Positions 3,697-17,325 of a stretch of 64,000 nt of DNA are shown here, piece after piece. The stretch spans positions 1,565,758 to 1,629,757 of the forward strand of contig NZ_LT839648.1 of the NCBI RefSeq assembly GCF_900176885.1. The letters run 5' to 3'. The position numbers were made by a program, and so were the translations under genes. Positions within the stretch are counted from its first letter, which is position 1; every line of letters begins with the position of its first letter. The stretch comes from Oceanobacillus senegalensis. GTDB lineage: Bacteria > Bacillota > Bacilli > Bacillales > Amphibacillaceae. The notes below the pieces were generated by a model. The model worked only from the letters and a program-made list of their open reading frames with translations. It did no database searches and was not told the origin of the DNA.

Positions 3697-5103
3697 TTAT
3701 AAATTAGGTCGCTTGCCACCAAGTGGATTCAATTTTTCAATCGCATAACCGGTATTCAGTACACGTCCATCCGCAAATGCTGGTCCCGTAATTTGGATTC
3801 CTACTGGCATCTTTCCATTCCATCCACAAAGAACGGATAGGGTCGGTGTACCAGTCATATTTAATGGGTTTGTCAAGCGAATAAAGTTCGGTAGTAATGG
3901 CACCTGCTCACCGTTCAAATCAACCATTTCATCCCCGATTTTATTCGGCATAACTGGTAATGTCGGTGAAATTAGCACGTCTACTTTTTTGAATATGTCA
4001 TTGAATTCTTCTGTCAACTGTTCTTTTACTCTAGCAGCATCTGCATATTGCTTGGAAGATGGGAAAAATCCAGAAACTAGGGAATCACGTATATCTTTCC
4101 CAAAGTCTTCGGGTCTTTCAATAATACTATTATAATGAACAGCAGAAGCTTCGGAAACAGAGAACGTAAATCCTGCCCAGTCAGCATCTTTCATCGTAGG
4201 TATTTTAACCGTTTCTACCTCTGCACCCAGATCAACAAGTACTTGGATGGTATCACGAACAGACTTTTCAATATTGGAATCGATGTTGTTGAAGAAGTAC
4301 TCTTCATTAACACCAATTACTAAGTCTTTCACATCTCCCGTAATTTGATTGAGATAGTTTTCAGGCTTCCGTTCAACAGAGCCAGCATTTTTTTCATCGT
4401 GACCAGCGATGATTTCGAGTAATCCAGCTGCATCTTTCACCGTTTTTGTCATTGGGCCAACATGATCCTGAGTCCATGATAATGGGAACACTCCATGGGT
4501 GCTAACTAACCCACGAGTAGGTTTTAATCCAACAATTCCACAAGCAGCCGCTGGAATACGGATAGAACCGGCTGTATCTGTTCCAATAGATGCAGCACTT
4601 GCACCAACTGTAACAGCTGCGCCTGACCCACCACTAGAACCACCTGGTGTCTTCTCCAAATCCCATGGGTTACGGACTGGACCGTAATACGGGTTATTGC
4701 TTGTAATACTCAGCGCATATTCATGTAAATTCAATTTCCCTGTAAAAATAACTCCAGCATCCCGAAGTTTTTGTACCACCGTAGCATCATAAGAAGGGAC
4801 ATAGTCTTTATGTATTTTTGAGCCCATCGTTGTTAATTTATCTTTAAAGAAAATATTGTCTTTCATTCCCATTGGGATTCCGTGATACATTCCACGATAG
4901 TTACCATTTCCGATTTCTACTTCTGCCTTCTTTGCAGATGCAATTGCCTCATTGCGATAAATGGATATGTACGCATTCGTTTTTTCCTGCGTTTCTTCCG
5001 CACAATCAAGTACCGCTTCTGTCAATTCAACAGGAGAAATCTCTTTGCTTTTAAGAAGTGGTGCTAATTCCTCAACTGATTTTGATACAAGCTCGTTTGC
5101 CAA
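3697..5103 (-). CDS. Amidase-signature hydrolase (GatA-like amidase)
   Basis: A 468-residue amidase-signature enzyme that hydrolyses a carboxylic amide bond. The Ser-cisSer-Lys triad is present: Lys81 in GMPMGMKD-type context, Ser156 in GGSSGGS and Ser180 in GTDTAGSIRIPA. It resembles GatA of the tRNA amidotransferase, but no gatB or gatC is adjacent, so a free-standing amidase is more likely; the substrate is unknown. The start is TTG 5101-5103, chosen because GGAGGAG lies five bases before it. It sits just downstream of the cyclohexanecarboxylate-type cluster on the same strand, yet a repeat and an IS relic separate them. Confidence 0.85.
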   Translation of the reverse strand: MANELVSKSVEELAPLLKSKEISPVELTEAVLDCAEETQEKTNAYISIYRNEAIASAKKAEVEIGNGNYRGMYHGIPMGMKDNIFFKDKLTTMGSKIHKDYVPSYDATVVQKLRDAGVIFTGKLNLHEYALSITSNNPYYGPVRNPWDLEKTPGGSSGGSGAAVTVGASAASIGTDTAGSIRIPAAACGIVGLKPTRGLVSTHGVFPLSWTQDHVGPMTKTVKDAAGLLEIIAGHDEKNAGSVERKPENYLNQITGDVKDLVIGVNEEYFFNNIDSNIEKSVRDTIQVLVDLGAEVETVKIPTMKDADWAGFTFSVSEASAVHYNSIIERPEDFGKDIRDSLVSGFFPSSKQYADAARVKEQLTEEFNDIFKKVDVLISPTLPVMPNKIGDEMVDLNGEQVPLLPNFIRLTNPLNMTGTPTLSVLCGWNGKMPVGIQITGPAFADGRVLNTGYAIEKLNPLGGKRPNL

Positions 5104-5460: not shown

Positions 5461-6658
5461 TTATCCTTCATATTTCCTCACTACTGTAGCGATTCCTTGG
5501 CCAACACCAATACACATAGTTGCTAGACCATACTCCACTTTTCTTCTTTTCATTTCATACAATAAAGTAGTTAGAATTCTGGCCCCACTTGCACCTAATG
5601 GATGCCCATAAGCAATCGATCCACCATTGACATTTACTTTATCTATGTCGATTGATAACTCATTAATACAAGCTAGAGACTGCGCGGCAAAGGCCTCATT
5701 TAATTCAACCAGCCCAATATTATCTATGGATATATTTGCTCTTTTAATAGCTTTCTTTGTTGCTGGTACAGGCCCAATTCCCATGATGGCTGGATCTACT
5801 CCTGCCACAGCAAATGATTCAATATAAGCCATTGGGGATAGCCCCAATTCTTTTGCTTTATTTCCCGTCATTAATAATAAAGCACTAGCTCCATCATTAA
5901 TTCCTGAAGCGTTCCCTGCTGTTACGGTTCCACCTTCATAAACCGTTTTCAAGGTCTGTAATTTTTTTAATGAAGTGTTAGGGCGTGGATGTTCATCCTG
6001 TTTTACTAAGCTTGTTTTTCCCTTGATTTTTATTTTAACCGGAACCATTTCTTCTTGCATGCTTCCAGTTTCTATTGCTATATTCGCCTTTTGTTGACTC
6101 TTATAAGCGAACTCATCTTTACTTTCCCTGGATATGTCATACTTCTTCGCTACATTATCTGCAGTTTCAATCATGGAATATGGATAATGCTTATCTGCTA
6201 ATCTCTTATTCACAAATCTCCACCCAATAGTTGTATCATATGTTTCGATGGATCTCTGGAAAGATTTTGTTTGTTTTGCCGTGACGAAAGGAGCTCTTGT
6301 CATACTTTCTGTTCCACCGGCAATGAATATATCTCCTTCCCCACACATGATTGCTTTTGCCGCTTGATTCACTGCTTCAAGACTTGAACCACACAAGCGA
6401 TTTACCGTAACTCCACCGACTGACAGTGGTAAATCTGCTATTAGGGATGCCATTCTAGCAACCATTCCTGTTATCTTCCCCACTCTGATTAGCGCACCCT
6501 ATATAGACATCTTCGAGTTCTTCCACTGGAAAATCATTTCGCTTAACAATCGCCAGTATAACAATAGCTGCAAGGTCATCAGGGCGTACGTCTTTTAAAG
6601 CACCTCGATATTTACCTATCGGTGTTCGAATTGCATCAACTATTACCACCTTATCCAT
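5461..6658 (-). pseudogene. Acetyl-CoA acyltransferase (thiolase), interrupted by a single-base frameshift
   Basis: Together the two frames give a complete thiolase of about 396 residues, which would cleave a 3-ketoacyl-CoA with CoA in beta-oxidation. Frame one starts at 6658 (MDKVVIVDAIRTPIGKYRGA) and ends GCANQSGEDNRN then GC-stop. Frame two carries on with VARMASL, the active-site cysteine in NRLCGSSLEA, the histidine in GHPLGASGAR and the second cysteine in CIGVGQG. The frames differ by one extra G in the GG at 6462-6463. This is either a recent inactivating mutation or a sequencing error. It is the last gene of the cluster and closes the pathway to pimeloyl-CoA degradation. Confidence 0.85.
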
Positions 6659-6680
6659 TATCTTCCTCCATTCATCTCTT

Positions 6681-7424
6681 TTATCCGATCATGCTATGTC
6701 CCCCATTCACACTTAGAACCTGACCAGTAATCCAATTAGCCTCATCAGATAACATAAACAATACTGCACCAACTACATCACTTGTGGTGCCCAACCGTCT
6801 TGAAGGATATTGTTTGACTATTTTATTTACAATTGACTCATCGAACTCGCCCTGGTCAATCAGTCCAAGCGAAATAGTGTTACACTGGACATTGCTTCTT
6901 CCGACTTCTTTGGCTAAAGACTTCAGAAAACTTATTGCCCCATTTCTAGCTGCTGCAGACACAATTAAGTTCCTATCACCAGTTCTAGCGGAATCTCCAA
7001 CTATATTAATAAACTTTCCATGATTATCTTTCATAGAAGGTACGAATTCATAAACCAGATTTAATACACCATAAAAACACACATCTACTTCTCTCTTCCA
7101 CTCCTCCGGTTCATATTCGAAAAATCCTTTCATCTGAGCCCAGCCAGCATTGTTGACGATCATATCAATGTGACCAAAGTCCCCACCGAGCTTCTCCTTC
7201 ATTGACTTCACTTCATCATAATTGGCTAAATCCCCTTGAACAGATGTAGCATGAACTCCTAGCCTTTCTATCTCTTTAACTAATTGGATTGCTTCTTGCT
7301 CTGATTCACGATAATGTAACGCAACATTAGCTCCGTTTTCAGCTATAGCAAGCGAAAGCTCGCGCCCAACCCCTTTTGCTGCTCCGGTAATGAGCACATT
7401 CTTATTTTTTAAATTTATTTTCAT
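6681..7424 (-). CDS. Short-chain dehydrogenase/reductase-like protein lacking the YxxxK pair
   Basis: A 247-residue SDR fold protein. The nucleotide-binding motif GAAKGVGRE and NNAG are intact. At the catalytic position, where the neighbouring SDR at 10270-11016 has YSAAK, this protein has SAAAR, so both the Tyr and the Lys are replaced (Ser and Arg). It ends with the usual tail GQVLSVNGGHSMIG. In family terms it should bind NAD(P) but may not act as a standard alcohol dehydrogenase. It is in the middle of a collinear run (24 bases after the hydratase, 22 before the thiolase), so a role in the same pathway is likely. The spacing and ribosome binding site support the start. Confidence 0.8.
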   Translation of the reverse strand: MKINLKNKNVLITGAAKGVGRELSLAIAENGANVALHYRESEQEAIQLVKEIERLGVHATSVQGDLANYDEVKSMKEKLGGDFGHIDMIVNNAGWAQMKGFFEYEPEEWKREVDVCFYGVLNLVYEFVPSMKDNHGKFINIVGDSARTGDRNLIVSAAARNGAISFLKSLAKEVGRSNVQCNTISLGLIDQGEFDESIVNKIVKQYPSRRLGTTSDVVGAVLFMLSDEANWITGQVLSVNGGHSMIG

Positions 7425-7448
7425 TACCGCATGCCCCCTTTAAGATTT

Positions 7449-8228
7449 TTATTTTCCTGCAAAAGCAGCTGTTCGTTTTTCTAAGAATGCCTCTGTACCT
7501 TCCACCTTATCTTCTGTTCCGTATAAGACTGCCTGCGCTAATGTCTCAATCAACAAGCCCGTGTCTGTATCTAAGTCATTTCCCTTCTGCACTGCAATTT
7601 TTGCCATTTGTATGGCCAATGGTCCTTTTTGGGTAATCCGTCTAGCCTTATCCTTAGCTGCATCCAAGAGATCCTCTTGCCTTACAACTTTCGATACTAG
7701 TCCCAATTCTTTCGCTTCATCTGCCAGTAAAAATTCACCGGTTAAAATCATATCCAAAGCAACACCCTTACCTATGATTCTGGAAAGGCGTTGTGTACCT
7801 CCTGCACCTGGAATGACTCCAAGATTAAGCTCGGGTAATCCTAACTTGACATTTTCTGAGGCAATACGAATATCACAAGCTAACGCTAATTCTAAACCTC
7901 CACCTAAGGCATATCCATTGATTGCGGCAATCGTTGCCTTTTTACTACTTTCAATACGTTGATATAATTCAGTCATACTGCCAGAGACAAAAGCATCCAT
8001 TGGTTTTCTTTTCGTCAGTTGATTAATATCCGCACCAGCTGCAAATGCTTTTTCACCTGAACCAGTGAAAATGATGACCCTAATTTGTTCGTTCTGTTCT
8101 AATATTTCCATAGCAGATAGTAAGTCCTTAACTGTCTCCCCATTAATGGCATTACGCACCGAAGGACGATTGATTACAACCGTAGCAATACTCTCTTCTT
8201 GGATTAAAAGAATATTTTTAAAGTCCAA
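7449..8228 (-). CDS. Enoyl-CoA hydratase / BadK-like cyclohex-1-enecarboxyl-CoA hydratase
   Basis: A 259-residue crotonase. The oxyanion-hole and catalytic regions are complete: AFAAGADI, GYALGGGLELALACDIRIA and the two glutamates in LELALACD and LPELNLGVIPGAGG. The start is taken as TTG 8226-8228 because AAGGAGGAG lies just upstream and gives the standard family length. An upstream ATG would add 50 unrelated residues inside the dehydrogenase gene. It overlaps the end of that gene by 11 bases, so translation is probably coupled. Family members hydrate a 2-enoyl-CoA; in this setting the BadK step (adding water to cyclohexenecarboxyl-CoA) is the most attractive role, but a general beta-oxidation role cannot be excluded. 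Confidence 0.85.
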   Translation of the reverse strand: MDFKNILLIQEESIATVVINRPSVRNAINGETVKDLLSAMEILEQNEQIRVIIFTGSGEKAFAAGADINQLTKRKPMDAFVSGSMTELYQRIESSKKATIAAINGYALGGGLELALACDIRIASENVKLGLPELNLGVIPGAGGTQRLSRIIGKGVALDMILTGEFLLADEAKELGLVSKVVRQEDLLDAAKDKARRITQKGPLAIQMAKIAVQKGNDLDTDTGLLIETLAQAVLYGTEDKVEGTEAFLEKRTAAFAGK

Positions 8229-9390
8229 CCGAAACTCCTCCTTTTTTATACTCCTTTTGAATTTGCGACGCGATAATATTCTTTTGAATTTCAGAGGTAC
8301 CTTCATAAATTCTTGTAATCCTAGCATCACGATAAAAGCGCTCAATCGGATATTCAGAGATGTATCCAATACCCCCATGAATTTGAACAGCTTTATCTGC
8401 TACTCTATTATAAGTCTCTGAGCCTAGTAGTTTTACCATGGCCGCTTCTTTAATCACCTTTTTATTCTGATCAACCATGGTAGCTACTCGATACACCATG
8501 GAACGAAGCGCTTCAACCTCTACAGCCATTTCTGCTAGATAATGTTGAATAATCTGTTGTTCCATGATTGGTTTTCCGAATTGAATTCGATTATGAGCAT
8601 AATCGATGGACATTTCTAGTAATTTATCAGCTGATCCTAAATTCCTTGCAGCCATGCCTGCTCTTCCATTTGCTAGAATTTTTAAGGCATTAATATATCC
8701 TTCACCTTCCATACCCAGCACATTATCCACAGGTACTTCACAACCTTCAAAGAAAACCTCTGATGAATGTGAACCATGCAGCCCCATCTTTTGTTCAATC
8801 TTCCCAATAACTAATCCAGGAGTATCTTTTTCCACAATAAAGGATGTAATCCCCCGTGCTCCTCTTTCTGGATCCGTAACTGCCATTACAGTGAATATAT
8901 CCGCAATTGGGGCATTAGTAATATAATGCTTACTACCATTAAGAATATATTTATCCCCTTTCTTAATAGCAGTTGTCTTTAAATTAGAGGCATGTGACCC
9001 CGCACTCGGTTCTGTTAGAGCAAATGCACCAATTCTTTCCCCCGAAGCCATGCCTGGTAAGTATTTGCTCTTTTGCTCTTCTGTTCCCAATTCAACAATA
9101 CCTACTCCACCAATACCGGTATGACCACCAATGACAGTCGTATAACCATTGTGGGTTCTTCCAATTTCTTCTAAAATTGCACATTTCCCTACCATACTTA
9201 ATCCAAGTCCACCATATTCTTCAGGTACACTTAGCGCAAATAACCCCATTTGCTTCGTCTTTTCCATAATCCGTTCTGGAATTTCGTTCATTTCTTCTAT
9301 TTCCATCGCATATGGTTCCACTTCATGATCAATAAAGTCACGTATTCCTTCTTTTAGTGATTGAATATCCTCCGATAACTCAAAGTTCAT
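8218..9390 (-). CDS. Acyl-CoA dehydrogenase
   Basis: A 390-residue FAD acyl-CoA dehydrogenase with the family landmarks in order: GGLGLSMVGKC, the FALTEPSAGSHAS substrate/FAD signature, the arginine-rich C-terminal region, QIHGGIGYISEYPIERFYRDA and the catalytic base Glu363 in YEGTSEIQK. It removes two hydrogens from the alpha and beta carbons of an acyl-CoA and passes electrons to ETF. Unlike the second dehydrogenase at 13534-14709 it has the normal Glu. Its ATG overlaps the stop of the 3-hydroxyacyl-CoA dehydrogenase gene (ATGA). A likely role is oxidation of pimeloyl-CoA or a shorter product after ring opening (inference). Confidence 0.93.
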   Translation of the reverse strand: MNFELSEDIQSLKEGIRDFIDHEVEPYAMEIEEMNEIPERIMEKTKQMGLFALSVPEEYGGLGLSMVGKCAILEEIGRTHNGYTTVIGGHTGIGGVGIVELGTEEQKSKYLPGMASGERIGAFALTEPSAGSHASNLKTTAIKKGDKYILNGSKHYITNAPIADIFTVMAVTDPERGARGITSFIVEKDTPGLVIGKIEQKMGLHGSHSSEVFFEGCEVPVDNVLGMEGEGYINALKILANGRAGMAARNLGSADKLLEMSIDYAHNRIQFGKPIMEQQIIQHYLAEMAVEVEALRSMVYRVATMVDQNKKVIKEAAMVKLLGSETYNRVADKAVQIHGGIGYISEYPIERFYRDARITRIYEGTSEIQKNIIASQIQKEYKKGGVSVGL

Positions 9391-10090
9391 TTCAAATTCC
9401 CCTCTTTCTTATCATGATAAAACCCGCGTCCAGATTTTCTCCCTAATCTACCTGATTTCACATACTTTACAAGTAATGGAGATGGGCGATACCTTTCACC
9501 TAAATGGGCATACAAATACTCCATATTACATAATCTAGTATCCAAGCCAACTAGATCTACCATTTCAAGTGGGCCCATTGGATGATTTAATCCAAGTTTC
9601 ATAGCTTTATCAATTTCTTTTAGTGAAGCCACGCCTTCCATCAACATATTCATCGCTTCGTTCCCGATAACACAGTTCATTCTACTAGTAACAAAACCAG
9701 GGAATTCATTAACCCCCAACCGTTTCTCATTCCATTTTATCGGCAATAAATTTAATCACTTCTACAGTCTCATCAGACGTATCCATTCCTCGGATAATTT
9801 CAATTAATTTCATCCGATGAACTGGATTAAAACAGTGCATAGCAATGAATCCGTTTGGGTATTTAGTAGTTGTACCAATCTCGGTTGTGCTTATTGTCGA
9901 GGTATTAGTAGTCAAAATAATAGATTCTTTCACAACTGACTCTTGCTAAGTCGTTCATATAAACTTGGGCGCTCTCAATCGCATATTATGAAATATCCTA
10001 AAGATTTACGTTAAATCCAGAAATTACTGATTGATAAGCAATCCCACGCCCCATTGTTCCACTGCCTATAACAGCAATATTAGTGACCAT
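9387..10090 (-). pseudogene. 3-hydroxyacyl-CoA dehydrogenase, internally deleted and frameshifted
   Basis: The gene begins at ATG 10088-10090 with MVTNIAVIGSGTMGRGIAYQ, a perfect NAD-binding start, after GGGAGGGG. Around 9960-10000 the reading breaks, and about 50 residues of the Rossmann domain are missing. It picks up with TTNTSTISTTEIG and AMHCFNPVHRMKLIEIIRG, shifts frame again near 9735, and finishes with the normal C-terminal domain (NEFPGFVTSRM, NHPMGPLEMVDLVGLD). The total of about 235 codons compares with about 285 for the family. The deletion makes function very unlikely. If the pathway still works, another chromosomal copy must supply this step. Confidence 0.85.
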
Positions 10091-10125
10091 ATTATTTCCC
10101 CTCCCACTAAAATATTTTCTTTAGA

Positions 10126-10262
10126 AGAGGATGAGACATAACTAAAGTATTTACTCAAAATATGAAAAACGCATTACTTAGCGGAGTATATTTCTGGAGC
10201 GGTTCGTATACGCCAATTATCTGCGGGTTTTGATTTAAGAAAATACTTTCGTCCCAGCCTCT
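10126..10262. repeat. MITE-like element with long imperfect inverted ends
   Basis: AGAGGATGAGACATAACTAA at 10126 is mirrored by AAATACTTTCGTCCCAGCCT ending at 10262. The 137-base unit has no open frame and sits between the BadH-like gene and the broken dehydrogenase. Elements with ends of this kind (GAGGCTGGGACRWAA...) are common between genes in Bacillaceae as far as I recall. Its position suggests it entered the operon after the operon formed, and it might affect read-through. Confidence 0.65.
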
Positions 10263-10269
10263 ATTTGTT

Positions 10270-11016
10270 TTAAACCATTGTTAATCCGCCATTAACTGAT
10301 AATGTCTGCCCTGTTACGTAATCTGCCTCTGGTGATGCAAAATAGCCAACAGCATTAGCAATATCCGTCGGTTTTGCTAGACGTCTGAATGGGATTGCTT
10401 TTTCTAAAGCTTTCGTTATTCCTTTGTTATACGATCCAATTTCAGCAAATAACGGGGTATCACTTGGTCCGGGTGCCACGCAATTTGCGTTTATATTATG
10501 CTTAGCCATTTCACGAGCAATTGTCTTGGTAAAAGCAATAATTCCTCCCTTGGCTGCAGAGTATACCGCCTCCCCACTTGATCCAACTCTTGCAGAATCT
10601 GAAGAAATATTAATGACTTTTCCAGAACCATTCTCCATCATAATCGGTAAAATTTCTTTCGTAGTATGAATTTGCCCCATTAAGTTAATATCGATTACTC
10701 GCTTCCAAGTACTTGGTTCGCTTTCTATGAATGGCTCAATCTTATCCCATCCAGCATTATTAACTAATACATCGATAGATCCATATAGGGACAACGATTC
10801 CTTTACTGCTTCTTGGACACTTTCTAATGTAGTGACATCACAATAAACAGCTGCTGCCTCTCCACCTTCATCTCTTAAAATAGACACTGTTTCTTCAGCA
10901 TTGTTTAAATTAATATCAGCAACGATAACTTTCATAGATTTTGAAACTAGTACTCTTGCAATCTCCCTTCCAATCCCACTTCCAGCTCCAGTAATGAATG
11001 CAATTTTCTCTATCAT
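10270..11016 (-). CDS. badH: SDR oxidoreductase, BadH-like 2-hydroxycyclohexanecarboxyl-CoA dehydrogenase
   Basis: A 248-residue SDR with all catalytic parts: GAGSGIGRE nucleotide loop, NNAGWD, Ser in NISSDSARVG and the YxxxK motif as VYSAAKGG. Several stretches (NNAGWDKIEPF, SDSARVGSSGEAVYSAAKGG, ending GQTLSVNGGLTMV) are characteristic of BadH from the Rhodopseudomonas cyclohexanecarboxylate/benzoate pathway as I remember it. It would oxidise 2-hydroxycyclohexanecarboxyl-CoA to the 2-keto compound with NAD. Genes for the preceding and following steps lie in the same run. A generic 3-ketoacyl reductase is the alternative. Confidence 0.82.
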   Translation of the reverse strand: MIEKIAFITGAGSGIGREIARVLVSKSMKVIVADINLNNAEETVSILRDEGGEAAAVYCDVTTLESVQEAVKESLSLYGSIDVLVNNAGWDKIEPFIESEPSTWKRVIDINLMGQIHTTKEILPIMMENGSGKVINISSDSARVGSSGEAVYSAAKGGIIAFTKTIAREMAKHNINANCVAPGPSDTPLFAEIGSYNKGITKALEKAIPFRRLAKPTDIANAVGYFASPEADYVTGQTLSVNGGLTMV

Positions 11017-11051
11017 TTAAATCTCTCCCATTCAATTAATTTCATTTACCA

Positions 11052-12695
11052 TTATGATTGGGTAGGACTAAATTTTTCTTTGACTTGCTCTCTTAAGCGA
11101 AACTTTTGAATTTTACCACTAGGAGTTCTAGGAAAATCATCCACAACTTCCAAATGCTCAGGCCAATACTGCTTCGCCACATGTTTTTTCTCTAAATAAT
11201 CCTTTAAGTCTTCCAATGTAATAGGCTTCTTACCTTGTTTCATACTAATATAGGCACAAGCTTTTTCTTGTAATCTTATATCTGGCATTGCAACAATTTG
11301 TGCTTCCGAGATATCCGGGTGTTCATATAAAGCGTTTTCAATATAGGCAACGGGAATATTTTCTCCACCTCGTATAATAATGTCTTTGTTACGACCGGTA
11401 ATACGGATATAACCTTCTTTATCCATCACAGCTCTGTCACCAGTGATAAACCATCCATCCCTGTGTTCTGCCTCGGTTATATCCATCCGTTTTAAATACC
11501 CAACAAACTGTGCTGGTCCTCTACATAACAAAGTACCTTCTACATTTGGAGAACAGTTTACAAAATTTTCATCTACCACCTTTATTTCCATTCCTGGAAA
11601 AGGAAAACCATCCGTACTTACTAATTTTTCCTCCGGATCATCTGGTGAAGTTAATGTCACCAAGCCATTTTCCGATTGTCCCCATCCTGCTATGATTTTG
11701 AAATTAACTTTTCCCTTCGCTTCTTTAACTAAAGATCTTGGTACCGGTGCACCTAATGAGACAAATATACGGAATGTTCCAATATCTTGGTTTTCAATAC
11801 CCTCTAGTTGTATCGTATCTTGGAGAAAAGGTGTAGCTGATGCAGTAAATGTTATGTTCTCTTTCTTGATTAAATCAATGAATTCATGAGGATTCCAAAT
11901 ATCTTGATAGACACCCGTCCCTCCGATATGAAATGGGAGCCTTACTCCGTATCCAAATCCAGTTTGATGTGCAAAGGTGGACGCCATAAACATGACATCA
12001 TGCGAAGTTAAACGTAAACGATTAATCCAATAATTGGTCGATACACAGAGTGTATTATGTGTATGCATGACGCCCTTAGGTTTTCCTGTCGTTCCCGAAG
12101 TAAAAATAATTTCCGTAACATCATTAGGATTAATAGAAATCCGGTCTAAAATAGCTAGATTCTTTTTATTTTCCCAAGGTTCATCCGTTAAACAAGATAA
12201 CGCCTTCATTTTTTCTGGGACATGATCTCCTATTACAAAAACGTGCTCTAAACTCTCCCACCCATCCCGAAGACGAGAAACCATTTCCGTATAATCAAAA
12301 TTTCGGAATGTATCAGGTATTACTAGCATTTTTGCTTCCGACATTTTAATCATATAATTAATTTCCCGATCTCGATAAATTGGTACTAATGGATTGGTAA
12401 TGGCACCAATTCGTGTTGCTGCTAAATGAAGTATAATAAACTCATTCCAGTTAGGTAGCTGTAGGGATATAACGTCTCCCTTCCCTAACCCATACTCGAT
12501 CAATCCTATAGCAACTCTATCTACAAGTTTTCCAAGCTCAGCATACGTATACCGAGATTTTTTATCAATAATCGCCAGTTTGTTTGGATTTTTTTGAATT
12601 GCTTGATTTAAATAGTCTAGAATTGTTTTATTCGGCCAAACTTCTTGATACTTTGCTATATAAGCTTCTGTCAGAAGTGTCTCAAAGTTTCCCAT
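11052..12695 (-). CDS. aliA: Acyl-CoA synthetase, AliA-like cyclohexanecarboxylate-CoA ligase
   Basis: A 547-residue adenylate-forming enzyme that would activate a carboxylic acid with ATP and CoA in the cytoplasm. Motifs in order: IIFTSGTTGKPKGVMHTHN (P-loop A3), GWGQSENGLVTL (A5), DGWFITGDRAVMDKEGYIRI with GRNKDIIIRGGENI (A7-A8), and the catalytic lysine in FPRTPSGKIQKFRLR near the C-terminus. The start at 12695 is preferred over the ATG six bases earlier because AAGGGGG is then at normal distance. Neighbours (BadI-like and BadH-like genes) point to cyclohexanecarboxylate as substrate, but a medium-chain or aromatic acid cannot be ruled out. Confidence 0.85.
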   Translation of the reverse strand: MGNFETLLTEAYIAKYQEVWPNKTILDYLNQAIQKNPNKLAIIDKKSRYTYAELGKLVDRVAIGLIEYGLGKGDVISLQLPNWNEFIILHLAATRIGAITNPLVPIYRDREINYMIKMSEAKMLVIPDTFRNFDYTEMVSRLRDGWESLEHVFVIGDHVPEKMKALSCLTDEPWENKKNLAILDRISINPNDVTEIIFTSGTTGKPKGVMHTHNTLCVSTNYWINRLRLTSHDVMFMASTFAHQTGFGYGVRLPFHIGGTGVYQDIWNPHEFIDLIKKENITFTASATPFLQDTIQLEGIENQDIGTFRIFVSLGAPVPRSLVKEAKGKVNFKIIAGWGQSENGLVTLTSPDDPEEKLVSTDGFPFPGMEIKVVDENFVNCSPNVEGTLLCRGPAQFVGYLKRMDITEAEHRDGWFITGDRAVMDKEGYIRITGRNKDIIIRGGENIPVAYIENALYEHPDISEAQIVAMPDIRLQEKACAYISMKQGKKPITLEDLKDYLEKKHVAKQYWPEHLEVVDDFPRTPSGKIQKFRLREQVKEKFSPTQS

Positions 12696-12707
12696 AGCCA
12701 TGCCCCC

Positions 12708-13508
12708 TTATTTTCTAAACTTATTAAAATCTACAGGTCGTTTTTCAAGAAAAGCATTTTTACCCTCATTCGACTCCTCTGTGTTATAAAACAAAGCCAA
12801 ACTCCCCATTGCCAGTTGTGTTATTCCTTGAATATTTGCGGAATCCGCATTAAATGAATACTTCAACATTTTAATCGCTGTTGGACTTTTATCCAAAATT
12901 TTCCTAGCCCATTTTTCAGCCTCTTCTTGTAATTCATTAAGTGGAACTATTTTATTTACTAGTCCCATTTCTTTTGATTCCTCAGCTGTATATTTCTCAC
13001 ATAAGTACCAAATCTCTCTTGCTTTCTTTTCTCCAACAATCCTTGCTAAATAAGCAGAACCATATCCAGCATCAAAACTACCAACTTTAGGTCCGGCCTG
13101 ACCAAATTTTGCCGTATCGGCCGCAATTGTTAAATCACAAATTACATGTAACACATGGCCACCACCAATGGCATAACCGTTCACTGCAGCAATAACCGGC
13201 TTCGGAATATTACGAATGGTTTGATGTAAGTTTTCAATTTCAAGACCAATTCCACCACCTAAACCGCCAGTATAATCATACCCTCCTTCTTCCCCTTTTT
13301 GTTTCTGATCTCCTCCAACACAAAAGGCTTTTTCACCTGCACCTGTCAGAACAACTACACCTATTCGGTTATCATCCCAAGCATCATAAAAAGCCCAAAT
13401 TAACTCCTTAATTGTTTCTGCTCGAAATGCATTTAAACTATCGGGACGATTAATTGTTACTTTAGCAATTCCGTCTATTTTTTCATATAGAATATCTGTT
13501 AATTCCAT
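12708..13508 (-). CDS. badI: BadI-like 2-ketocyclohexanecarboxyl-CoA hydrolase (MenB subfamily of crotonases)
   Basis: A 266-residue crotonase of the MenB/BadI branch: [27 protein letters not shown] and [18 protein letters not shown]. MenB (menaquinone biosynthesis) and BadI are close relatives. Two points favour BadI: the segment [18 protein letters not shown] matches BadI better than MenB, and the flanking genes are AliA-, AliB- and BadH-like, with no other menaquinone gene around. BadI opens the ring of 2-ketocyclohexanecarboxyl-CoA by hydrolysis, giving pimeloyl-CoA, so this would be the key ring-cleavage enzyme. It lies 25 bases after the AliB-like gene and 12 before AliA. Confidence 0.82.
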
Positions 13509-13533
13509 TACATTTCCTCCTTCATCATTCTAG

Positions 13534-14709
13534 TTATTTTGAAGGTACTGGTCTTTCATAAGAACGAAACTCTTTTCCAATAATATCTTTTGCTATAACC
13601 ATTTGATTCGCTTGAGCAGTACCATCACCAATCTCAAGTCCAATGACATCACGTAAGCGCTGTTCCAGTGGCATTTCCTTTGTATAGGCATAATGTCCAT
13701 TTAATAATAAGCACTCATGTATCGCTTCTTGACTACATTTTGGCCCCATCCATTTAACCGATGCAGATTCCTTCGAGTGTTTTAACCCTTGATCCCGAAG
13801 CCAAAGTCCACGGTATGCTTGCCATTTAATCATTTCTATTTGTGTATAATGGGTTACAAGTGGGAATGAAACCCCTTGATATGTCGCCAACGGTTTCCCG
13901 AAAGATAGTCTCCCTTTTACATGCTCAATTGTTTCATCTAAACTCTGTAATGCTGCACCAACACATTGCAAGCCTATAAGTAGGCGACTAAGATCAAATC
14001 CATTCATAACTTGAATAAATCCCTTATCTTCTAGACCAATTAGATATTTTTCCGGTAATTCAACATCATTTAAATAAATCGAACCACGACCAATTGGGAT
14101 ATTTCCCATGTCCTCATACCCATTGCATTCCACTCCAGGTAAGTCAGAAGGACAGATAAATGCACTAATTCCACGACTTCCTAAGTCTGGTTTGGTTTTT
14201 GCGAAAATTAGGAAAGCGTCACCTATTGTTGCCACACTAATACCAGATTTTTCTCCATTCAATACATAAACTCCATCTTTATAAATAGCTGTAGCTTTAA
14301 TTCCAGCAGCATCTGTACCAGCATCAGGCTCTGTTAATGCAATCCCAACAATTTTATCTCCACTTGCAATCGGTGGAAGCCATTCTTTTTTTAAGTCTTC
14401 ACTAGCATGATTATTAATGATTTCCCCAATAAGAGAGTTTAGCATGACGGCATACGTTAGGTTAAAGTCCCCCCTACCTATTTCTTCAGCTGCAATCCCT
14501 GCTGTTACACAATCCGCTTCACTACCACCATACTCTGCTGGAATCCTAAGGCCATTCACTCCTAACAGTCCTAATTTCTTCCATAAGCCTCTTGGCAATA
14601 CTCCCTCTCTATCCCATCTTGTATAATTAGGAAGCAATTCCGCACGAACAAATTCTTTTAGCATATCTCTAAAATCTTCTTGTTCCGGTGTAAATGAAAA
14701 ATTCAACAT
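13534..14709 (-). CDS. aliB: Acyl-CoA dehydrogenase, AliB-like cyclohexanecarboxyl-CoA dehydrogenase
   Basis: A 391-residue FAD acyl-CoA dehydrogenase (GVNGLRIPAEYGGSEADCV, FALTEP-like IALTEPDAGTDAAG). At the spot of the usual catalytic Glu (YEGT) it has GDGT, so the candidate base is Asp362. Asp has been described at the active site of cyclic acyl-CoA dehydrogenases acting on cyclohexane or cyclohexene carboxyl-CoA, which fits. It is the first gene after the sigma-54 promoter, with GGGAGGG before the ATG. The reaction would be cyclohexanecarboxyl-CoA to cyclohex-1-enecarboxyl-CoA. Confidence 0.85.
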   Translation of the reverse strand: MLNFSFTPEQEDFRDMLKEFVRAELLPNYTRWDREGVLPRGLWKKLGLLGVNGLRIPAEYGGSEADCVTAGIAAEEIGRGDFNLTYAVMLNSLIGEIINNHASEDLKKEWLPPIASGDKIVGIALTEPDAGTDAAGIKATAIYKDGVYVLNGEKSGISVATIGDAFLIFAKTKPDLGSRGISAFICPSDLPGVECNGYEDMGNIPIGRGSIYLNDVELPEKYLIGLEDKGFIQVMNGFDLSRLLIGLQCVGAALQSLDETIEHVKGRLSFGKPLATYQGVSFPLVTHYTQIEMIKWQAYRGLWLRDQGLKHSKESASVKWMGPKCSQEAIHECLLLNGHYAYTKEMPLEQRLRDVIGLEIGDGTAQANQMVIAKDIIGKEFRSYERPVPSK

Positions 14710-14741
14710 AAATACCCTCCCTTTCCGTTTTCAATTTTAAT

Positions 14742-14759
14742 ATGCAAAAAATATGCCAA
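14742..14759 (-). promoter_or_regulatory. Sigma-54 (-24/-12) promoter of the catabolic operon
   Basis: On the minus strand the sequence is TTGGCATATTTTTTGCAT: GG and GC are exactly 12 bases apart and match the sigma-54 consensus TGGCAC-N5-TTGCW except for T in place of the final C of the -24 box. The predicted start of transcription is near 14732, 22 bases before the aliB ATG. The nearest regulator gene, also on this strand, is a sigma-54 activator. Confidence 0.85.
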
Positions 14760-14938
14760 CACTTATTTATGAACAAACCAGCATTACAACCTAATATTTT
14801 CGCAAAATTGATAATAAATCCTCAAACTTGATAATTATAAATGCAAAAAAATGTGATTGATGGCTACAGCTTTTACAAACACTTAAATTAGATTGGATGG
14901 AAAAAATATTTGGAAAGAACTTTAGTAAAAAGGTTGAG

Positions 14939-14969
14939 GATAGTAGAATACGTATTAAATACTATTATC
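14939..14969. promoter_or_regulatory. Candidate upstream activator site
   Basis: GATAGTAG-AATACGTATT-AAATACTATTATC is an interrupted palindrome about 180 bases upstream of the -24 box, the usual range for enhancer sites bound by sigma-54 activators. It is the best inverted repeat I found in this gap. The bound factor (the activator at 15248-16570) is inference. Confidence 0.4.
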
Positions 14970-15143
14970 TTAGCAAAAGGGAATGTTCGTCTCATCTATA
15001 AGGAGGAGAAGCGTCTGTTCAAATAACGTATAGAGGAATCTGGATAGGCTTATCCTGTGAGTAATCGAGCGATGCAAAGTTTACAAATTGATGAGTAATC
15101 AAATTTTGTATAATATTCAATTAAACCTTTAGAAAACTAGAAT

Positions 15144-15181
15144 GACCATTTGAATAAGCAATCAAAACTTTTCAAATGGTC
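15144..15181. terminator. Hairpin between activator gene and sigma-54 operon
   Basis: GACCATTTGAA (15144-15154) and TTCAAATGGTC (15171-15181) form a perfect 11-base stem with T-rich flank on the plus strand and a weaker one on the minus strand. It lies about 65 bases past the stop of the activator gene and would keep its transcript separate from the operon. The spacing to the -24 box (about 390 bases) leaves the regulatory region free. Confidence 0.55.
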
Positions 15182-15247
15182 ACTTTTTCTTTCATATTAA
15201 ACACAATACCGTTAAAGAGGCGGTCTCTTATCCAGTAATCCTAACAT

Positions 15248-16570
15248 TTATTTTAGTTTATATTTAGAAATTTTCCGATATAAACTAGCTACACTTATCT
15301 TTAGCTTTTGTGCTGCTATCGTTCTATCTCCGTTTGCATCATCTAAAGCTTGTTTAATTATGCTAATTTCAGCATTTTCAACAGCTGCATGGAGACTCAA
15401 AAATTCCATGTTCTCTTGCATTAATGAAACAGGCATACTCGATTTATTGTTGGAGGGAAGATATAGGTTTTTTAATGTTAAAGTATCGTTATCAACTATA
15501 TTCATTCCCCTTTCAATACAGGCTTTTAACTCTCTTATATTCCCTGGCCACTCGTAAGTTAATAACCAATCTTCCAAACCTGAATCAATATAAGTTACTT
15601 CTTTATCGAATTTATTATTATAAAACTCAATAAAACTGTATGTTAATGGTAAAATGTCTTCTTTTCTAACTCGAAGTGGGGGAATTTGCAAATCGAACAC
15701 ATATAAACGATAATATAAATCTTGCCTAAACTTTCCGTTCTCCACTAGTGTTTTTAAGTCACGATTTGTCGCTGCAATAATTCGAATGTCAACTTTCTTA
15801 CTTGTTGTTCCTCCTAGTCTTTCTACTTCTCTTTCCTGAAGAACACGGAGTAATTTGCCTTGCGATTGGTAGGAAAGCTCTGATATTTCATCAAGGAATA
15901 ATGTTCCATTCTGGGCTAATTCAATTTTCCCAGGTTTTCCCTCCTGTTTCGCTCCACTAAAAGCACCGGCTTCGTATCCAAAAAGTTCTGATTCAAATAA
16001 TTCATCAGGAATAGCGACACAGTTCACTGCAATAAAGGACTGATTCTTTCGTGTACTTAATTCATGAATAGCCTGGGCAAATAGCTCCTTTCCTGTTCCA
16101 CTTTCCCCTGTTAATAGAACCGTAGAATTATTCGTTGCAATTTTTGATGCTAATTCTTTAACCCTCTGTATGGCAGGGCTTTGACCTATTATATCATCAA
16201 AACTATATCGGTTTTGCTTAATCGATTTTTTCTTATATTTTTTTGCTTCGATTGAATTAATAAAAGAAATTAGTTCTATATAATCAATATTCTGCTCACT
16301 TAATAGAATATGGTAAATCTTTTTATCTTCCAAGTTTTTCATCCTAAGTAAACAGGAATAGCCAAATAGTTTTCCAAAAATAACTTTATTTTTCCCAAAA
16401 TTTGTATGGCGACTAACTATCGTATAAATTGATTTTCCAATTAACTCTCCTTCATTAATGTTAAATTCTTTATAAAAGGCTGGGCTAACATCTGTTATCT
16501 TATGGCTTTTATTTGTCTCTACGTACAACCTATCATCCACTTCATCTATCCGCTTTTTTACTAGTACCAT
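15248..16570 (-). CDS. Sigma-54-dependent activator with PAS sensor domain
   Basis: A 440-residue enhancer-binding protein. Residues 1-110 look like a divergent PAS-type sensor. Residues 125-360 are the AAA+ domain with Walker A GESGTGKE (155-162), the sigma-54 contact loop as GAFSGA (202-207, normally GAFTGA), Walker B GTLFLDEI and the arginine finger region FRQDLYYRL. The C-terminus carries a Fis-type helix-turn-helix (DRTIAAQKLKISVASLYRKI). There is no receiver domain, so it likely senses a small molecule directly. It lies just upstream of the sigma-54 promoter and is the obvious regulator of the catabolic operon, perhaps responding to an acyl-CoA intermediate (inference). It is preceded by the MaoC-like gene at 18 bases. 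Confidence 0.92.
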   Translation of the reverse strand: MVLVKKRIDEVDDRLYVETNKSHKITDVSPAFYKEFNINEGELIGKSIYTIVSRHTNFGKNKVIFGKLFGYSCLLRMKNLEDKKIYHILLSEQNIDYIELISFINSIEAKKYKKKSIKQNRYSFDDIIGQSPAIQRVKELASKIATNNSTVLLTGESGTGKELFAQAIHELSTRKNQSFIAVNCVAIPDELFESELFGYEAGAFSGAKQEGKPGKIELAQNGTLFLDEISELSYQSQGKLLRVLQEREVERLGGTTSKKVDIRIIAATNRDLKTLVENGKFRQDLYYRLYVFDLQIPPLRVRKEDILPLTYSFIEFYNNKFDKEVTYIDSGLEDWLLTYEWPGNIRELKACIERGMNIVDNDTLTLKNLYLPSNNKSSMPVSLMQENMEFLSLHAAVENAEISIIKQALDDANGDRTIAAQKLKISVASLYRKISKYKLK

Positions 16571-16588
16571 TCACATCACCCATCATTA

Positions 16589-17002
16589 TTAATTCGATAA
16601 TAGTAAAAGAACAACTTGACCCCTAATTACCTCCTTACCATCCACATCAAAGCAGGTTACTTTTTGTGTAACCCAATTTCTTTCTTCGTTAATGTCAATA
16701 ATAACTAGTTCTGCCGTAATCATGTCGCCTACATATACAGGGGAATTAAACACCAAATCCTTTTGCAATAATACACTTGGAATTCCAGGAAGTTTTGTAC
16801 TGATAACTTGAGTAATTAATCCTTCTGTTAACAAAGCAGGTACGATTGGTTTGTAAAAATGATTTTTCCAGATGTCCTCGTTCTGGTCATACACCGGACT
16901 ATAATCTCTAGTCAATCCACTACTCAATTTCACTTCTTCTTCTGTAAACATTCGTTGTAATCGTTCTGTTCTACCTTTGTATAATTTCTCGAATGTATTC
17001 AT
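16589..17002 (-). CDS. MaoC-like hot-dog domain protein
   Basis: A 137-residue hot-dog fold protein resembling MaoC-type acyl-CoA hydratases or thioesterases (features: GLTRDYSPVYDQN near residue 28, PIVPALLTEGLITQVIS, SPVYVGDMITAELVII). The D-(x)4-H hydratase motif of (R)-hydratases is only partly kept (DYSPVYDQN), so activity is uncertain. The start at 17002 has GAGGAG upstream. It is in an operon with the sigma-54 activator, which suggests it handles a CoA intermediate of the same pathway or its detoxification. Confidence 0.7.
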   Translation of the reverse strand: MNTFEKLYKGRTERLQRMFTEEEVKLSSGLTRDYSPVYDQNEDIWKNHFYKPIVPALLTEGLITQVISTKLPGIPSVLLQKDLVFNSPVYVGDMITAELVIIDINEERNWVTQKVTCFDVDGKEVIRGQVVLLLLSN

Positions 17003-17325
17003 TTTACTCCTCATCCCATTTTTTTAAATTTTCCCAATATTATTGTACATTATGCGCCATTCAATTTAAAGTAAACTGTATATAAAATCAAAATCTTTTG
17101 AACAGATAAAACAAATAAAAAGGTTAAATATATTACCACTATGTGCTTACCTATTTCCTTGCATACATAAATAGAAGTGGCATAATAAAAATTAATAAGC
17201 ATACTGCCATAGAAAAACATTCTAACTATTAATCTAGTATTGATTGAAAGGAAATAAGTATAATATATTATTTTTAATTTATTGTAAATATTTTTAATTT
17301 TAAGAGGATTTACCATTTAGGTTCT
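17003..17325. other. AT-rich intergenic region
   Basis: An open frame on the minus strand (17050-17316) lacks a ribosome binding site and has the composition of random AT-rich DNA. I see nothing else except that the promoter of the MaoC-activator operon should lie here. Confidence 0.4.

Follow-up and report, generated by a model that had tools for sequence, protein, structure and literature searches.

The 64,000-nucleotide stretch of Oceanobacillus senegalensis DNA analysed here (hereafter, the window) carries a run of genes that raises two questions: does a Gram-positive spore former open alicyclic rings, and what would switch on such a pathway? The bad-ali clusters listed in a published survey are associated with MarR (Gram-negative) or TetR regulators and include no Bacillota, the only Gram-positive examples being Rhodococcus and Corynebacterium, with TetR regulators (PMC9795900). 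A preliminary description of the locus proposed a ring-cleavage cluster of the cyclohexanecarboxylate (CHC) type under sigma-54 control and considered this new in a spore former, which agrees with that survey and, as far as their listings show, with paper searches. A sigma-54 circuit for alicyclic-acid ring cleavage is not described in the literature we examined. We conclude that the locus is probably a divergent bad-ali-type catabolic cluster, switched by sigma-54, for an alicyclic acid resembling CHC. The genes named in the preliminary description are indeed found, all on the minus strand and read from position 17014 down to 5461 (Table 1).

Table 1. Features of the O. senegalensis cluster, with positions in the window.
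Feature	Position	Strand	Remarks
MaoC1, MaoC-fold (hot-dog) protein, 141 aa	16589..17014	-	Asp37 kept, Tyr42 at catalytic His place; directly 5' of activator
Sigma-54 activator	15248..16570	-	AAA+ domain, GAFSGA loop, Fis-type HTH; N-terminal domain of ~110 residues, type unproven
Proposed activator half-site TTTGCA	14842..14847	-	TTYGCA pattern read on sequence
Proposed activator half-site TGCGAA	14799..14804	-	TTYGCA pattern read on sequence
-24/-12 promoter element TGGCATATTTTTTGCA	14743..14758	-	49 nt before AliB-like ATG
AliB-like acyl-CoA dehydrogenase	13534..14709	-	GDGT replaces usual YEGT
BadI-like candidate ring-opening hydrolase	12708..13508	-	MenB/BadI branch of crotonase family
AliA-like CoA ligase	11052..12701	-	NCBIfam model and identity
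BadH-like short-chain dehydrogenase	10270..11016	-	NCBIfam model and identity
Dispersed intergenic repeat	10100..10262	-	43 genome matches, itself included; non-functional as part
3-Hydroxyacyl-CoA dehydrogenase remnant (pseudogene)	9387..10090	-	Intact relatives in L039, L097
ACAD2, second acyl-CoA dehydrogenase	8218..9390	-	YEGT motif; pimeloyl-CoA step proposed
Enoyl-CoA hydratase, generic	7449..8228	-	BadK role possible; TTG 8228 = proposed start
SDR2, second short-chain dehydrogenase	6681..7424	-	
PcaF-like thiolase	5461..6658	-	Split by frame change; 403-aa intact copy in L097

Judged by their sequences, the four core proteins are related to, though divergent from, AliA, AliB, BadH and BadI of the bad-ali pathway. 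Identity to the nearest fetched bad-ali cluster is 46% for AliA, 46% for AliB (L079), 47% for BadH (L088) and 61% for BadI (L079), and the best NCBIfam models for the first three are the CHC ones; the AliA-, AliB- and BadH-like assignments are upheld on both counts. In the profile searches proposed as a check, no CHC equivalog cut-off was reached (AliA 576 of 792 bits, AliB 379 of 575, BadH 274 of 431, BadI 352 of 468). L079, which has all four genes together, likewise falls below three of the four. The clusters of Rhodopseudomonas palustris and Aromatoleum sp. CIB (PMC9795900) and their relatives L079, L080, L087, L088 and L089 share with our locus the joint occurrence of the four enzyme kinds and nearby beta-oxidation genes, and in Salipiger (L080) every enzyme kind of the cluster has a counterpart. 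They differ in identity (AliA 40-46%, AliB 41-46%, BadH 41-47%, BadI 55-61%), in their MarR or TetR regulators, and in that our group of loci has MaoC1 and no constant BadK. The AliB motif GDGT, also shared, occurs in 27 of 27 readable Bacilli AliB-like rows and five of five reference AliB rows, and YEGT in seven of seven ACAD2 rows. GDGT is present in L082, L093 and L094 as well, and the nearest AliB matches among all those fetched are the unlabelled L095 (48%) and the carboxylase-linked L082 (47%). The gene called BadK-like does encode an enoyl-CoA hydratase, but a generic one: a hydratase at least 55% identical was seen in 9 of 20 stretches, some of which end early, and the window's protein is 39-42% identical to hydratases beside three reference clusters. 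Published bad-ali clusters are frequently without badK (PMC9795900).

With these enzymes, the AliA-like ligase would form the CoA ester, the AliB-like dehydrogenase would yield the 1-ene, and a hydratase step would add water to it. The BadH-like dehydrogenase would then produce the 2-oxo ester, the BadI-like hydrolase would cleave the ring, giving a pimeloyl-CoA-type product, and ACAD2, the hydratase, 3-hydroxyacyl-CoA dehydrogenase and thiolase would liberate acetyl-CoA. The same chemistry might instead serve another ring acid, for instance a cyclohexane or cyclohexene acid with substituents (perillate-like monoterpene or naphthenic), with CHC at most a side substrate. Consistent with this alternative are the divergence of the proteins from the CHC models, the variation of non-core genes between loci, and the suggestion that badKHI clusters without aliAB act on monoterpenes (PMC9795900). 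However, an AliB-like dehydrogenase, which is suited to a saturated ring, is present in 18 of the 20 stretches and the gene kinds agree with those of bad-ali clusters; we regard a different principal substrate as rather unlikely.

The downstream part of the cluster is damaged in this genome. The beta-oxidation genes reported for the run are present, but two are broken: the 3-hydroxyacyl-CoA dehydrogenase gene is interrupted by in-frame stops and frame changes and lacks part of its sequence, and the thiolase gene changes frame after approximately 60 codons. Comparison with a genome of the same genus (L097), where the corresponding proteins are intact at 288 and 403 aa, supports both lesions. 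Elsewhere, the genome offers eight further strong 3HCDH_N places and ten further strong thiolase places.

The BadI-like gene could also be a second MenB, with the remainder a general beta-oxidation operon devoid of ring chemistry. Its product lies above both MenB NCBIfam cut-offs (383.1 versus 380 and 368.7 versus 342.7 bits), scores higher with the MenB models than with the CHC BadI model, and is 64% identical to Anoxybacillus MenB (L091), compared to 61% for the nearest bad-ali BadI, and 59% identical to the MenB of its own genome. These scores and plain identities favour MenB, but the protein is distinct in its residues, and a separate MenB is encoded at C4:820409. The ring-contact residues of MenB are Leu106, Val108 and Leu109 (PMC3637252). 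Position 109 is Leu in 29 of 29 MenB rows, whereas the 41 BadI-like rows have Glu (38), Met (2) or Leu (1), an acidic residue being shared here with the bad-ali clusters; Leu106 is retained and position 108 is Ile or Val. MenB-invariant Asn107 and Gln112 are changed in all 41 BadI-like rows, Leu109 in 40 and Asp110 in 39. At MenB position 91, the BadI-like protein retains Lys or Arg, whereas the five reference BadI rows have His. In a tree from which 15 of the 25 family MenB rows had been dropped beforehand, the BadI-like protein was not placed inside BadI, but the MenB rows and KSB1 formed a starred clade with the window row outside it; the AU test did not reject a single clade of BadI-like with the reference Bad rows (p 0.361). 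We do not favour a MenB-only function and consider it very unlikely, given that the genome encodes MenB elsewhere, that the ring-contact residue differs and that AliA-, AliB- and BadH-like genes lie alongside. The KSB1 match (L057) groups with MenB in the tree and was excluded from the 20 stretches.

Control of the cluster by sigma-54, as read from the DNA, is very well supported. The adjoining regulator is neither a MarR-type BadR nor TetR-like; it is a predicted sigma-54 activator with an AAA+ domain and HTH_8, in a genome with one RpoN match, and it lies beside a -24/-12 element. A perfect element precedes the first gene of the putative operon in 27 of the 28 loci whose stretch contains the activator, compared to none of the five whose stretch lacks it. 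The 28th locus (L042) has the activator, no AliB before BadI, and an element with one mismatch (TTGCG at its end). A chance origin is excluded because the element is conserved across loci, rather than from a single match. L103 was not counted as a negative (its AliB lies inside an operon whose promoter and activator are in L151, a different contig of that genome), and L044 (truncated where its contig begins) and L098 (whose activator is in L150), which have perfect elements and no activator in the stretch, are in neither promoter count. In activator-less clusters, no regulator was assigned among the ORFs read. The N-terminal domain of the activator, described earlier as PAS, gave no Pfam match, and support for that label comes from a low-confidence model (mean pLDDT 63). 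The activator's loop reads GAFSGA instead of GAFTGA, invariantly in 14 of 14.

Comparison also supports an upstream array of TTYGCA half-sites, located 20-115 nt ahead of the -24 element, with two half-sites in the window. There are 81 in 21 regions, compared to a mean of 20.05 and a maximum of 33 in 200 shuffles, although the pattern was picked from the regions later scored and its dinucleotide-keeping shuffle is approximate. Shuffles for the promoter element and for the first half-site pattern test preserve single bases only. The 21 regions include L098 and omit L054 relative to the 21 promoter loci, and L103 remains among the five upstream controls. Initiation at the promoter would require the linked AAA+ activator, which would bind this array.

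Bacillus has other sigma-54 catabolic systems, those of RocR, AcoR and BkdR, and these, together with GabR (PMC4279683), share an AAA+ activator with a Fis-type HTH adjoining a catabolic operon controlled by a -24/-12 element, whereas the ring-acid gene set, the hot-dog neighbour and the TTYGCA array are features of our locus. The Clostridium CrbR butyrate operon (PMC6615313) likewise combines acyl-CoA genes and maoC with a predicted sigma-54 promoter and multiple upstream sites, but its maoC is inside the enzyme operon and its task is butyrate synthesis, not ring cleavage.

The MaoC-like ORF, which lies within the range of the preliminary description and was passed over there, is the most informative neighbour. 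MaoC1 lies immediately 5' of the activator in 28 of the 29 activator loci and accompanies it where the pair sits elsewhere (L158, L150, L153). Across the class, it is present in 5 of 398 genomes, each of them one of the 20 that carry a BadI-like gene. This co-occurrence (1.9e-7) includes the window's genome, which was selected because it has both genes; when that genome is omitted, 4 of 4 in 19 of 397 corresponds to 3.8e-6, and both figures ignore kinship. The catalytic pair of MaoC (R)-hydratases is Asp-His. In 37 of 37 MaoC1/MaoC2 rows, with one locus represented twice, this His is replaced by Tyr; the two remaining aligned rows, 27% identical to MaoC1, keep it. MaoC1 may no longer be an enzyme.

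We propose MaoC1 as a sensor of CoA esters or a partner of the activator, to which it probably signals the presence of a CoA ester from the pathway. A more tentative version is that MaoC1, once an enzyme, now works in trans as an acyl-CoA sensor: on binding CHC-CoA or a CoA ester further along the pathway, it would license the activator. We know of no such in-trans hot-dog sensor for bacterial enhancer-binding proteins. FapR of Bacillus offers a precedent (PMC5052256), with a hot-dog domain that senses a CoA thioester and is not enzymatic, but in FapR the fold is fused to a DNA-binding domain of its own, whereas MaoC1 is a separate protein beside the activator. It is also conceivable, if doubtful, that MaoC1 is a pathway enzyme, either a BadK-replacing hydratase with an Asp-Tyr pair or a thioesterase. 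Its predicted model (pLDDT 88.9) matches the fold of (R)-hydratase 1iq6 (TM 0.83), Tyr42 is invariant and Asp37 nearly so, BadK is not constant, and in eight loci a second such protein, MaoC2, is encoded between the AliB and BadI genes. Yet MaoC1 tracks the activator rather than the enzymes; of the 20 class genomes with a BadI-like gene, 15 gave no match to it at E <= 1e-22, and no -24/-12 element was seen before it in the promoter scan. The near-constant pair can be tested directly as a candidate for a new way of sensing CoA esters and, if MaoC1 is a sensor, would be a further example, after FapR, of a hot-dog fold in a non-enzymatic role.

BadI-like genes are not rare in Bacilli, occurring in 20 of 398 genomes of the class and 14 of 397 of the order at a scan cut-off (E <= 1e-112) chosen after MenB matches were seen. 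Comparison of 20 stretches (the window and 19 named loci) supports the gene content, with BadI-like and AliA-like genes in all 20, BadH-like in 19 and AliB-like in 18, although the set is often incomplete or rearranged in distant Bacilli (L105, L107, L108, L110, L111). Genes outside the core differ from locus to locus, and no transporter or other accessory gene is common to more than three loci. Because several loci are close kin (L043/L045, L048/L050, L053/L055, L098/L153), the events behind the locus counts are not independent; L102 and L152 come from a single genome, and L157 duplicates L051 and was counted once. If our reading holds, alicyclic-acid ring cleavage extends to a set of Bacilli. 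Three of four scored Bacilli BadI-like proteins pass a MenB model cut-off (window, L046 and L109, not L112), and automatic annotation may therefore hide such clusters.

Comparison of the encoded proteins suggests that the cluster is probably a divergent member of the known bad-ali type (AliA ligase, AliB dehydrogenase, BadH dehydrogenase and BadI ring-opening hydrolase), which would act on an alicyclic acid of the cyclohexanecarboxylate (CHC) kind. The profile searches bear out the preliminary description of a CHC ring-cleavage cluster only in part. The best NCBIfam model is the CHC one for the AliA-like (576 bits, cut-off 792), AliB-like (379 bits, cut-off 575) and BadH-like (274 bits, cut-off 431) proteins, but all three scores fall below the cut-offs, and the BadI-like protein scores higher with the model for MenB, a related crotonase-family enzyme (383 bits, cut-off 380), than with that for BadI (352 bits, cut-off 468). 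These CHC cut-offs are strict: a Marinobacter cluster (L079) carrying all four genes together itself falls below those for AliA, BadH and BadI.

Identities to the nearest of five fetched bad-ali clusters are 46% for AliA, 46% for AliB, 47% for BadH and 61% for BadI. Each enzyme kind of the cluster has a counterpart in the Salipiger bad-ali cluster (L080), where the thiolase and the second acyl-CoA dehydrogenase (ACAD2) are 53% and 47% identical, but the second short-chain dehydrogenase (SDR2) only 29%, and the 3-hydroxyacyl-CoA dehydrogenase is a larger protein. Two observations over all fetched loci count against the bad-ali reading: the AliB-like protein is closest to the unannotated L095 (48%) and to L082, a carboxylase-linked relative (47%), and the BadI-like protein, outside its Bacilli counterparts, is closest to an Anoxybacillus MenB (64%). 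The MenB identities reduce our confidence slightly.

Could the BadI-like protein simply be a MenB? The genome has a MenB of its own (C4:820409), 59% identical to it, and aligned residues as well as gene context speak against that identity. In E. coli MenB the ligand ring is contacted by Leu106, Val108 and Leu109, according to the accessible text of PMC3637252. Position 109 is Leu in all 29 MenB rows, Glu or Asp in 5/5 reference rows from bad-ali clusters, and Glu in 38, Met in two and Leu in one of 41 Bacilli BadI-like rows (one identical pair among them). The MenB-invariant Asn107 and Gln112 are replaced in all 41 of these rows and Asp110 in 39. Position 91 sides against BadI, being Lys or Arg in the 41 rows, Arg in MenB and His in the five references. 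A phylogenetic tree groups the MenB rows and the KSB1 row L057 in a starred clade, separate from the main BadI-like clade (36 rows, support 96, starred). Of the BadI-like rows, three are placed next to MenB and two next to BadI (support for these joins, 83 and 90); 3 of 11 reference rows (L081, L084, L085) stand apart from all others. An AU test does not reject a single clade of BadI-like and reference rows (p 0.361).

The Glu of the YEGT motif is the catalytic base of acyl-CoA dehydrogenases. GDGT replaces this motif in all 27 readable Bacilli AliB-like rows (L054 is unreadable there) and in 5/5 reference AliB rows, while ACAD2 of the same loci keeps YEGT (7/7). We regard GDGT as a mark of the family and not of the substrate, because the carboxylase-linked relatives L082, L093 and L094 share it and L095 reads ADGT. 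In the tree, AliB-like rows are placed together with these relatives and the reference AliB in one starred group of 20 rows. The three carboxylase-linked relatives are encoded on plasmids, in clusters that also carry genes for biotin carboxylase and carboxyl transferase, possibly a different, carboxylase-based pathway with an AliB-like enzyme.

Features of the cluster in reading order
Feature	Position or length	Strand	Remark
MaoC1 (MaoC-fold protein)	17014-16589	minus	first
Sigma-54 activator	16570-15248	minus
Gap with -24/-12 element	538 nt	minus	between activator and AliB-like gene
AliB-, BadI-, AliA-, BadH-like genes, in that order		minus
3-Hydroxyacyl-CoA dehydrogenase		minus	broken
ACAD2		minus
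Enoyl-CoA hydratase	start probably TTG 8228	minus
SDR2		minus
Thiolase		minus	split; last

Two genes of the cluster are damaged. The 3-hydroxyacyl-CoA dehydrogenase remnant is about 160 nt short of the intact 867-nt gene of L097, a genome of the same genus, and its matching pieces contain one TAG, one TAA and one TGA stop; the thiolase changes frame after about 60 codons. In L097 the whole gene set is intact and in identical order. We infer that the host's GTDB genus is that of Oceanobacillus piezotolerans, since the match in a genome of the same genus (G079) has the contig coordinates of the named record L039. The gap between the BadH-like gene and the remnant holds a dispersed intergenic repeat of about 140 nt (10100-10262); the genome contains 43 matches to it, some of which cover one half only.

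The core gene set is constant and the remainder variable. Among 20 stretches (the window and 19 Bacilli loci, each ending 8 kb from BadI or earlier), BadI-like and AliA-like genes occur in 20, BadH-like in 19 and AliB-like in 18; 17 stretches carry the activator, and these same 17 carry MaoC1. SDR2 occurs in 11, the enoyl-CoA hydratase originally described as BadK-like in nine, ACAD2 in seven and the window-type 3-hydroxyacyl-CoA dehydrogenase in three. In more distant genomes of the class, members of the set are often missing or differently arranged. Five loci of more distant Bacilli (L101, L104, L106, L109, L112) have the four core genes together in a stretch lacking activator and MaoC1. At E <= 1e-112, BadI-like genes occur in 20/398 class genomes (12/145 genera) and 14/397 order genomes (9/135 genera). 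Within the family, 5/159 genomes have a match of at least 86% identity, the other matches listed being at most 62%, as expected for MenB. Named hosts, a partial census from one scan with six peptide patterns, are Oceanobacillus, Lentibacillus, Peribacillus, Niallia, Cytobacillus, Neobacillus, Psychrobacillus, Mesobacillus and Bacillus.

The proposed sigma-54 control is well supported by comparison of loci. The element TGGCAY-N5-TTGCW occurs without mismatch 39-119 nt ahead of the first gene of the operon, whichever gene that is, in all 21 loci of the first comparison that have an activator in the stretch, and again in six distinct loci fetched later (L151, L153, L155, L156, L158, L159). With L042, which has an activator, no AliB there and an element with one mismatch, this makes 27/28, versus 0/5 loci lacking an activator in the stretch (L049, L101, L104, L106, L154). 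Of 500 single-base shuffles of the 150-nt stretches, 0 to 0.2% gave a perfect element. Searches of the genome gave a single match for RpoN and eight strong ones for the sigma-54 interaction domain.

Upstream, 20-115 nt before the -24 element, the 21 regions hold 81 half-sites (TTYGCA/TGCRAA), versus a mean of 20.05 and a maximum of 33 in 200 shuffles; there are two at 160-255 nt upstream and none in five AliB-upstream control stretches, one of which (L103) is invalid as an activator-less control. The window, with two, has among the fewest. Because the pattern was drawn from the 21 scored regions themselves, a fairer check comes from the six loci fetched later, which have 2, 2, 5, 4, 2 and 3. 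Elsewhere in the window's genome, a second acyl-CoA cluster (C4:2540000-2559000) has a sigma-54 activator and a -24/-12 element; one dehydrogenase there matches in three pieces, and the 3-hydroxyacyl-CoA dehydrogenase is broken. It is perhaps another decaying sigma-54 catabolic cluster. At C4:3626000-3644000, thiolase, short-chain dehydrogenase and 3-hydroxyacyl-CoA dehydrogenase genes adjoin a further sigma-54 activator, and a -24/-12 element is present there as well.

The sigma-54 control proposed for the BadI-containing cluster differs from that of described bad-ali clusters, which in the accessible text of a survey have MarR regulators in proteobacteria and TetR-like regulators in the Gram-positives Rhodococcus and Corynebacterium; that text names no Bacillota (PMC9795900). 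According to a sigma-54 survey of 2025, Bacilli and Clostridia are enriched in acyl-CoA dehydrogenases, 3-hydroxyacyl-CoA dehydrogenases and thiolases under this control, and 'cyclohex' is absent from its main text (PMC12316311). Among the papers listed, at the level of titles and abstract openings and in literature mostly outside subscription, we found no published account of this cluster; two of the listings covered 20 of 232 and 10 of 189 papers.

MaoC1 accompanies the activator closely. It lies directly 5' of it on the same strand in 28/29 distinct loci (20 from the first survey and eight fetched later; the exception is L100), and the two genes also stay together where they sit 3'-terminally in the cluster (L158) or lie several kb ahead of AliB (L150 with L098; L153). 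At E <= 1e-22, MaoC1 occurs in 5/398 Bacilli genomes, all among the 20 with a BadI-like gene; the two scans apparently used one draw, since genome number and handles agree. By count, this co-occurrence has a probability of 1.9e-7, or 3.8e-6 without the window's genome, with kinship ignored in both. In Aromatoleum, CHC-CoA is recognised by the repressor BadR, according to the accessible text of PMC9795900. We propose that MaoC1 serves the activator as a CoA-ester sensor or partner; the rival reading is that it is an enzyme. The predicted fold is that of an (R)-hydratase (pLDDT 88.9; TM 0.83 to 1iq6), but Tyr takes the position of the catalytic His in all 37 rows of MaoC1 and MaoC2, whereas the two remaining rows have His; of the 37, 35 keep the Asp, one has Glu and one is unread there. 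MaoC2 is a second such protein between AliB and BadI (L041, L048, L050, L053, L054, L055, L099, L159). In L113, from genome G153, a MaoC gene nearer the canonical type lies between activator and AliB (6080-6478, reverse-complement coordinates), with a second -24/-12 element upstream of it at 4667.
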